NCBI GenBank assembly: GCA_003576755.1
Contig: QEVT01000005.1
Coordinates: 1-45,308, forward strand
Source: a bacterium
Lineage (GTDB): Bacteria; Chloroflexota; Anaerolineae; Epilineales; Epilineaceae
Reading direction: 5' to 3'
Length of the DNA: 45,308 nt
Below are positions 21,028-22,351 of the stretch, piece after piece; position 1 is the first letter of the stretch; each line of letters starts with the position of its first letter. Under the pieces are notes generated by a model. That model worked only from the letters and a program-made list of their open reading frames with translations, did not search any database and was not told where the DNA came from. The translations under genes and the position numbers were made by a program.

Positions 21028-21060
21028 CGCCGCGGCCCGCGGCCGGACTTTGACGCCGCG
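21024..21060 (+). repeat. Direct repeat TTGACGCCGCG flanking a GC hairpin
   Basis: TTGACGCCGCG occurs at 21024-21034 and again at 21050-21060, 26 bases apart. Between them is a small inverted repeat (CCGCG/CGCGG). The second copy contains the -35 of the downstream promoter, so the repeat could be an operator; the first copy overlaps the rsmE-like stop. Confidence 0.6.
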
Positions 21061-21079
21061 CGACCGATGGTGCTAGATT
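21050..21079 (+). promoter_or_regulatory. Sigma-70-type promoter for the 21154/21917 gene pair
   Basis: TTGACG at 21050-21055, 18 bases, TAGATT at 21074-21079. Expected transcription start is near 21086, which excludes the in-frame ATG at 21067 as the start of the next gene. Confidence 0.65.
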
Positions 21080-21153: not shown

Positions 21154-21906
21154 ATGCAGCCCGGTATCCATACGCCAGAGTACTGGATCGAGAGCTTCAA
21201 ACCGTCCAGGGCGGATCTGGACGCGTTGTACGAGTTCATGATCGAGGTCAACCAGCCGGTCGGCATCGAGGTCCTCGCCGAGCAGGTGGTCCGCCGGCGG
21301 GTCGAGGCGACGCTGGCTTCCCGCCTCAAGCACCGCAAGGCATCGGGCACGGTGTATCGGCCGGCCGATCGCTACGATGTCGGCCAGAAGCTCGTCTTCC
21401 CGGCCCTCGACGGTGCGTCCGGCGTGGTCACCGCGGTACGCGCAGGCAACAATCCCGCTTACGGCAAGTATGATGTGATCGGCGTGGACATCGACGGCAT
21501 CACCCGCGAGTTCGCCGCAGGCCTCACGTGGGAGCACGCGCTGTCGCAGATGGACCAGGATCTCGATGCCGACGTGCTGGCCGAGCGCTACGCCCCGGTC
21601 ATCGCGCCGCAGCTCGCCGCCACGTTGACCCGCGAGCCCGACTGGCTTTCACTCGGCGACCGTTGGTCGTTGCGGTCGTTGCTGCCCCAGGTCAACGCCG
21701 GACATCTCAACCTGGCCGAAGCGGTCATCATGCTCGCCGGCGAGCCGTTGCCGGCCGAGCATCTCCTCAAGGACCTCGACCTCGACGACAGCGTGCCGCT
21801 CGAAACCCGGGCGCTGGCGCTCGAGCTGTCGCTCCAGGCCGACAGCCGGTTCCGCAACGTCGGCGCCGTCGAGGCGCCGTTGTGGGCCCTGACCGCGCCC
21901 GTGTGA
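21154..21906 (+). CDS. Unrecognised protein: winged-helix-like plus KOW-like barrel
   Basis: The ATG at 21154 is the first in-frame start after the predicted transcription start and gives 250 residues. I do not recognise a named family. The N-terminal third (LDALYEFMIEVNQPVGIEVLAEQVVRRRVEA) looks like a helix-turn-helix or winged-helix segment. Residues about 65-115 are beta-rich (YDVGQKLVFPALDG, GVVTAVRAGNNPAYGKYDVIGVDIDG), a pattern like small KOW/Tudor-type barrels. The rest is helical and acidic. There is no signal peptide or membrane segment. It has its own promoter and is followed after 10 bases by another unknown gene with a similar helical segment, so the two probably work together, perhaps on nucleic acid; that function is a guess. 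Confidence 0.7.
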   Translation: MQPGIHTPEYWIESFKPSRADLDALYEFMIEVNQPVGIEVLAEQVVRRRVEATLASRLKHRKASGTVYRPADRYDVGQKLVFPALDGASGVVTAVRAGNNPAYGKYDVIGVDIDGITREFAAGLTWEHALSQMDQDLDADVLAERYAPVIAPQLAATLTREPDWLSLGDRWSLRSLLPQVNAGHLNLAEAVIMLAGEPLPAEHLLKDLDLDDSVPLETRALALELSLQADSRFRNVGAVEAPLWALTAPV

Positions 21907-21916
21907 GGCACACCTG

Positions 21917-22351
21917 ATGTTGCACGCCCGCACCGACATCCACACCCCCTTCCACATCGACATGCAGTGGTGGTCCCGGCAAGGCCGGAACTTCGACCGC
22001 TTCCTCGCCGAGATCCTCGGCGATCCCAAGATCGATCGGGCCACTGGGGCCGAGCCGCTCGATTACGTCGATCCCGGCACTGCAGAGGTGCACCAGCTGA
22101 ACCCGCTCTGGGTCCGGGTGCTGTTGGACCAGGCGCACACCCCTGACTACATCACGCCGACCACGCCGTTGACCAACGCCGTGCTGCGCCTGTTGATCGA
22201 GAACCTCAACCGACCGATGTCGGCCGTCGACATGCAGCGGCGCATCAACCGCGGCACGCCCCAGACCCTGCTGCGCGTGCTCCAAGCGGCCCGCCACCAG
22301 TATGGCATCGCGGTGGCGCACGACGTCCCGGACGACAGCCCCTCGGCCTGA
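21917..22351 (+). CDS. Unrecognised small protein, partner of the preceding gene
   Basis: The ATG at 21917 follows GAGG at 21905-21908 with 8-base spacing. The 144 residues contain an N-terminal part (HIDMQWWSRQGRNFDRFLAEILG) with no family I can name, and a C-terminal helix-turn-helix-like region: TNAVLRLLIENLNRPMSAVDM, then QRRINRGTPQTLLRVL. This resembles the N-terminal helix pattern of the preceding protein (IE-x-NQPV versus IEN-LNRPM). It is acidic, soluble and probably cytoplasmic. The short spacing implies one transcript with the preceding gene. Confidence 0.7.
   Translation: MLHARTDIHTPFHIDMQWWSRQGRNFDRFLAEILGDPKIDRATGAEPLDYVDPGTAEVHQLNPLWVRVLLDQAHTPDYITPTTPLTNAVLRLLIENLNRPMSAVDMQRRINRGTPQTLLRVLQAARHQYGIAVAHDVPDDSPSA

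Follow-up and report, generated by a model that had tools for sequence, protein, structure and literature searches.

The gene pair described here is a conserved, near-universal operon of one bacterial class, and the window (the whole stretch of DNA analysed, 45,308 nucleotides) carries a shortened version of it. In most of the class the first gene has a C-terminal half in which a B3 fold is predicted by a confident model; this half was lost in the order to which the window belongs, and also in a second family. The preferred reading is that the cassette is a reduced form of a chromosomal regulator operon, of which the long form binds DNA and the window pair serves as an adaptor; the grounds for and against this reading seem to be evenly balanced. 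The initial annotation could not see the B3 half, because this half is not in the window.

The gene pair in the window and in its class

Two open reading frames on the plus strand were confirmed at the positions first given for them, 10 bases apart (Table 1). As had been claimed, they are unrecognised: neither protein was matched by a family in Pfam, NCBIfam or PHROGs, and PADLOC gave a weak Specificity_I match to gene 2 only (E 0.045). On the 5' side are hrcA, dnaJ, prmA (PF06325) and a gene for an RsmE-like RNA methyltransferase (PF04452), and on the 3' side is a PMT_2 glycosyltransferase; the pair stands between translation genes and a glycosyltransferase gene as described before.

Table 1. 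Positions of the two genes, their predicted domains and the putative promoter in the window
Feature	Positions	Strand	Remarks
Promoter-like site	21050..21079	+	TTGACG-18-TAGATT; sigma-70-like, upstream of gene 1
Gene 1	21154..21906	+	ATG 21154, stop 21906; 250 aa; reduced form without the B3 half; order: winged helix, small SH3/KOW-like barrel, RNAP-delta-like winged helix
Gene 1, first helical, winged-helix-like segment	21208..21339	+	aa 19-62, mapped from the model of a relative
Gene 1, small beta barrel, KOW/SH3-like	21373..21525	+	aa 74-124; strands of the relative at 79-82, 88-100, 104-113 and 119-124
Gene 1, RNAP-delta (HARE-HTH)-like winged helix	21688..21903	+	aa 179-250
Gene 2	21917..22351	+	ATG 21917, stop 22351; 144 aa; N-terminal region (in the window without the Cys site that most relatives have) and C-terminal winged helix
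Gene 2, winged helix	22163..22327	+	aa 83-137; net basic

The shared promoter proposed in the initial annotation agrees with the finding of one sigma-70-like site upstream of gene 1, where 0.1 would be expected from shuffled sequences. This site is not clearly conserved in a three-genome alignment of the window's own family. A related genus has a promoter at the corresponding place before gene 1, TTGCTG-17-TATAAT, and its -10 box is invariant across six species. A clear dyad operator or binding site was not found in the aligned upstream regions of the relatives, which contained promoters only. It should be mentioned that a block, ATTATACGAC, precedes the TTGCTG-17-TATAAT promoter by about 12-14 bases in four of the six aligned species of that genus (L233-L236).

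Relatives of gene 1 and gene 2 were found in 136 and 138, respectively, of the 150 sampled genomes of the window's class, which greatly exceeds what chance would give. Both genes were present in 133 genomes, and in 127 of these gene 2 followed gene 1 on the same strand; these counts take the best place of each gene per genome, leaving out lower-scoring second places (paralogues and fragments), with an adjacency limit of 1.5 kb. Five of the other six pairs were on different contigs (G022, G075, G083, G085 and G109; the gene 1 place counted in G075 is a methylase fusion). In the sixth, G079, the genes share a contig and a strand, and their distance of 1.5 kb slightly exceeds the limit. Eight class genomes have a single gene of the pair and, as judged from the coordinates, this gene is close to a contig end. 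Nine of the 150 genomes have neither gene; when these nine and G401 were searched again with the two family profiles, each profile gave 0 of 10. In all 47 fully fetched loci the genes are adjacent, with gene 2 starting from -4 to 121 bases after gene 1. No further neighbour is conserved within approximately 7 kb of the pair in these 47 loci, which means that the pair is a unit of its own.

A lack of co-occurrence in other genomes would have spoken against the initial annotation, which proposed conservation of the pair across Chloroflexota as a check. Co-occurrence is shown by the counts above. Conservation of the pair holds within one class, whereas gene 2 was not found in any of the 22 tested genomes of the same phylum that lie outside the class and carry a relative of gene 1. 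A phylum-wide profile search gave such relatives in 39 of the 263 genomes that do not belong to the class. Most of the out-of-class matches span positions of about 145-515, which comprise the B3 part together with the winged helices on either side of it, the delta-like one and the last one. No relatives were found in plasmids, phages or viral contigs at the search settings used. When named genomes were scanned with eight of the long relatives, 259 places were confirmed, and 80 kept places among these bore the names Anaerolineales, Caldilineaceae, Ardenticatenia, Thermoflexales and Chloroflexota, among others. From the names of these relatives, the class carrying the pair is taken to be Anaerolineae.

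Several smaller observations were made around the relatives. Of the 47 scanned loci, 8 have a tRNA-Arg(TCT) gene about 2-750 bases 3' of gene 2 and in the same orientation (L054, L060, L065, L076, L081, L089, L096 and L097), and a tRNA-Val(TAC) gene lies 5' of gene 1 in five others (L063, L072, L083, L090 and L094). These tRNA genes may be the mark of the ancestral site of the pair. The out-of-class relatives at L215-L230 are proteins of 540-942 aa with a different N-terminal part. By eye, a FemAB-type transferase-like gene was recognised in 9 of these 16 loci and a MurE-like gene in 8; these genes have the same orientation as the relative and begin 2.5-5.6 kb beyond its own start.

Domains of gene 1 and the missing B3 half

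The long form of gene 1 is present in 117 of the 127 adjacent pairs, as read from the 818-1103 bases between the matched part of gene 1 and gene 2; its length is 519-569 aa where the locus was fetched. The short form was found in the other 10 pairs, namely in the five pair-bearing genomes sampled from the window's order and in all five of a second family (f37). Since the relatives outside the class cover the part from the delta-like winged helix through B3 to the last winged helix, the long form is the older state and the window's form the reduced one. That the long proteins of most relatives arose by fusion of the two genes was considered and rejected, as a separate gene 2 is also present behind the long gene 1.

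The structure of a long relative (L068, 530 aa) was predicted from a 48-sequence alignment, with a mean pLDDT of 94.4. The predicted order is a winged helix, a small barrel, an RNAP-delta-like winged helix, the B3 domain and a last winged helix. The domain coordinates of the window protein were mapped from this model through an alignment (A2). In the same alignment the window protein ends before the position of the B3 domain, which is not present in it.

The helix-turn-helix-like segment and the barrel that had been read from the sequence of gene 1 were thus recovered in the family models, onto which the window sequence was mapped. The initial annotation would have been contradicted by folds unrelated to nucleic acid binding; the predicted folds are winged helices and a small barrel. 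For the barrel, Foldseek gave only weak matches (the N-domain of CdnL, eIF5A, EF-P and SAWADEE). No Pfam match to a KOW family was obtained for it among the 48 gene 1 members, and strands are predicted at residues 79-124 of the relative. This small barrel, placed after the first winged helix, may resemble those of CarD/CdnL and the KOW/SH3-like barrels, from which it differs in having no family match.

The second winged helix is similar to the RNA polymerase delta subunit (RpoE of Firmicutes) and the HARE-HTH domain; it is acidic and is kept in the window. Residues 189-267 of the model matched chain 8x6g_E of the S. aureus RNA polymerase complex with a Z score of 8.0 and an RMSD value of 3.1 over 75 residues, at 23% identity. 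The NCBIfam delta model TIGR04567 matched 3 of the 48 gene 1 members (best E 8.3e-4), and none of these members gave a match to Pfam HARE-HTH. The delta subunit is small and ends in a disordered, acidic tail. Gene 1, in contrast, is a multi-domain protein; the long model has no segment below pLDDT 50, and the window protein ends with the winged helix instead of an acidic disordered tail.

Residues of about 310-406 of the long relative form a predicted B3 pseudobarrel. The best structural match in VIA was 4ldu, with a Z score of 11.4 and an RMSD value of 2.3 over 93 residues. The top 16 rows of the comparison were all plant B3 factors (Z 10.5-11.4; RMSD values of 2.0-2.8 over 90-96 residues), followed by LlaJI (9.7), RAV1 and VRN1 (8.6), BfiI (8.5), NgoAVII (7.8), and UbaLAI and EcoRII (6.9). 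In Foldseek, the best E value was 7.8e-3 at a probability of 1.00, with nothing under 0.001. A profile of the B3 segment compared with four plant B3 sequences gave P 0.0015, and the whole protein picked the same segment with P 0.007; this similarity is weak and in the expected register, the stretch 'GL..WY....LPVGA.I' of the profile being aligned with 'ENTGDFV...GLQ.GDFI'. The gene 2 profile, used as a control, gave P 0.5. Pfam B3 matched none of the 48 gene 1 members, and a PDB profile search with the B3 segment returned no chain at E 10. The B3 assignment is therefore that of a confident predicted model of one relative, accompanied by a weak profile comparison. Of the 40 long members, alignment A4 contained 38 (L061 and L084 left out), and alignment A5 contained 37 (L061, L084 and L092 left out) and two paralogue segments.

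The missing half does not seem to have moved elsewhere. A profile search did not find it in any of the 11 genomes of the two short-form groups, which include the window's own, an assembly that is 82% complete. In the control, the B3 half was found in all four comparison genomes, in G075 only as a methylase fusion. On the tree of the 48 members, the short forms require two changes on the best tree, and a single clade was not rejected (p-AU 0.42). In the retained half of the window protein, 31 of the 32 positions conserved in at least 90% of the 48 family members are kept. This means that the retained half is under strong constraint.

Gene 2 and the distribution of charge

The helical segment that had been noticed at the C-terminus of gene 2 is a winged helix in its predicted model (residues 83-137; pLDDT 90.4). 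Its structural matches, RPC39 (Z 6.1), Z-alpha (5.8) and Fur/PerR/LexA (about 5), reflect a common fold, and Foldseek was weak, with no E value below 0.8. For both proteins, absence from the lists of fold matches is not counted against a family. WH_GDS1 matched 13 of the 48 gene 2 members (best E 2.6e-4) and HTH_20 matched 8. Apart from these two families and RNAP delta, family searches with the pair and its alignments yielded scattered weak matches only, and PDB sequence profiles of the pair gave nothing useful. The similarity between the helical segments of the two genes, which was also part of the initial annotation, is seen in a profile comparison that places the helical part of gene 2 on the delta-like winged-helix region of gene 1 (P 0.0015).

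In 39 of the 48 members, the N-terminal region of gene 2 combines a CxxC or CxxH pair with a Cys further on. In the other nine, which include the window protein and the two other members of its family, both stretches are free of Cys. Because both parts come and go together, the site is suggested to bind a metal and is probably a metal-binding N-terminal site in most species. Its distribution needs three changes on the tree. A link between its loss and the short form of gene 1 was considered and is unsupported: the short forms L048, L049, L056, L057 and L087 keep the site, and the long forms L054, L060, L074, L089, L096 and L097 have lost it.

The charge of the two proteins is unevenly distributed. 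In the 40 long members, the B3 region has a median net charge of +5 and a pI of 9.9. The last winged helix of the long form is about neutral to basic (family median +1). The first two winged helices of gene 1 are acidic (-4 and -7, family medians), and the barrel region is not basic (median -2). The window gene 1 has a net charge of -13 and a pI of 4.8, and all eight short forms examined are acidic. The family median pI is 5.1 for gene 1 and 5.9 for gene 2. Residues 81-138 of gene 2 have a charge of +4 in the window and a family median of +2. This split of charge suggests that the DNA reader of the long form is most likely the B3 domain, and that in the window the DNA contact, if DNA is bound at all, would most readily be made by the winged helix of gene 2. 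Since the basic B3 half is missing and the remainder is acidic, direct binding of nucleic acid by the window gene 1 is doubtful. Of the nucleic-acid-binding features ascribed to the pair at first, the winged-helix and small-barrel folds are supported, and the clearest features of DNA binding in the family lie in the half that the window lacks.

Possible function of the pair

In the long form, the basic B3 pseudobarrel and the last winged helix of gene 1 would read double-stranded DNA. The acidic N-terminal half, which comprises the first winged helix, the barrel and the delta-like winged helix, would contact proteins, the most likely partners being RNA polymerase, the gene 2 protein or both. 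Gene 2 would be a small winged-helix partner, carrying in most species the Cys-rich site, and the pair would act as a global transcription regulator. In the window lineage the pair would still be an adaptor, in which gene 1 represents the polymerase-contact part and the basic winged helix of gene 2 the DNA contact; the function in this lineage could differ from that of the long form. As parts of this scheme we infer DNA binding, RNA polymerase contact, a complex of the two proteins, and regulation. If it is correct, the pair is a candidate global regulator, not named by the libraries searched, for an environmentally abundant and poorly studied class, and the short form allows one to ask directly what the rest of gene 1 does without its DNA reader.

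A wider proposal is put forward tentatively, and the doubts outweigh the support at present: that Chloroflexota have a B3-type transcription factor of their own. This would be a stand-alone core gene outside restriction-modification, which combines a B3 reader with an RNAP-delta-like winged helix and has, in one class, a dedicated winged-helix partner. It would be a link between the B3 domains of restriction enzymes and those of plants, and the window's order would be a natural experiment in which the reader was deleted and the polymerase-contact part kept. One paper describes B3 as a plant transcription-factor fold derived from the readers of restriction enzymes (PMC11685440), and another names restriction enzymes as the source and calls the step unproven (PMC2688026). 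No paper linking a B3 domain with Chloroflexi was found among open-licence papers, and, as far as the searches reach, the open-licence literature does not describe a core bacterial gene for a B3 protein that stands alone and lies outside restriction. If the proposal holds, an enzyme-free, class-wide B3 protein would mean that the step from a restriction reader to a stand-alone regulator happened in bacteria too.

The long form shares its predicted B3 fold with the plant factors ARF, VAL1, FUS3 and LEC2, and like these it is a stand-alone protein without enzyme domains. It differs from them in that it is bacterial, its B3 domain is accompanied by winged helices and a small barrel and not by plant domains, and it has no sequence match at the level of Pfam; moreover, the B3 domain is absent from the window's own protein. 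The B3 domains of EcoRII, BfiI, NgoAVII, UbaLAI and LlaJI have the same predicted fold (Z 6.9-9.7), and paralogues of the gene 1 module in the class are fused to DNA methylases. The operon, however, has no nuclease or methylase, and its gene 1 is a core chromosomal gene with its own partner gene.

These fusions bear on an alternative in which the long gene 1 is a domesticated restriction-modification reader that recognises a sequence or a modified base in DNA and serves defence or epigenetic control, with gene 2 as its effector partner and the window pair as a remnant. In a protein of 880 aa (L051) the module is fused to N6_Mtase, and in one of 2041 aa (L246) to an Eco57I methylase and a TaqI_C specificity domain; in such fusions it sits N-terminal to the methylase. 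A third protein (L247, a paralogue of 1122 aa in G059) has no Pfam match, and the genes that come after it include those of a DNA methylase and a helicase. The search with the window gene 1 found the three at E 2.2e-7, 3.2e-8 and 2.3e-8, respectively. The profile of the B3 half found the first two at E 1.1e-14 and 1.1e-15, and the 1122 aa paralogue was not listed by the profile of the C-terminal half. That this paralogue is a nuclease is unproven, Pfam having matched nothing in it. As the module is fused to DNA methylases, it is tied to DNA recognition. In the two papers cited above, bacterial B3 is otherwise spoken of as a restriction-enzyme domain, and in a third, HARE-HTH domains are proposed as readers of DNA modification (PMC11037411). 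However, no nuclease, methylase or other effector domain was found in the pair by the Pfam, NCBIfam, PADLOC and PHROGs searches, and PADLOC gave no match at E 0.01 among the 48 gene 1 members. A gene that is near-universal in its class and absent from plasmids and phages is unlike a defence gene; the pair has no conserved neighbours, hence no defence neighbours. A restriction reader therefore seems unlikely, and the regulator operon remains the preferred reading.

The two proteins might also be nucleoid-associated and bridge or bend DNA instead of switching single genes. Several winged helices in one protein, a small partner and the class-wide core status of the gene would suit such a role, and both proteins showed middling structural matches to the winged helices of ScpA/ScpB. 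It is nevertheless quite improbable, as both proteins are acidic when taken as a whole and two groups do without the basic half.

The possibility that the barrel is a true KOW domain, and that the pair works with ribosomes or RNA, is suggested by the prmA and RsmE-like neighbours in the window, by the tRNA-Arg(TCT) gene 3' of the pair in several families, and by the weak Foldseek matches to eIF5A, EF-P and also, for the gene 1 model, the winged helices of SelB. This neighbourhood is not conserved across the 47 loci, however, the B3 domain and the methylase fusions indicate DNA, and the barrel lacks a basic charge; a role in translation is accordingly very improbable. A toxin-antitoxin or other small mobile two-gene cassette, which two short co-oriented genes 10 bases apart and a winged-helix protein might bring to mind, is disfavoured and scarcely credible for a pair that is not patchy (133 of 150 genomes), has no plasmid or phage relatives, and whose gene 1 is usually longer than 500 aa.

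Other members of the module family were noted apart from the operon. Short paralogues of gene 1 (314 and 336 aa) are located elsewhere in two class genomes (L051:178-1119 and L055:2-1009, both on the minus strand), with no gene 2 place listed beside them. A protein of 986 aa in G048 (L183:373-3333, minus strand) matches the B3 half at E 5.7e-6 and has several winged-helix-like segments. By eye, it also has a long C-terminal coiled coil, which makes it a structural-looking member of the module family.
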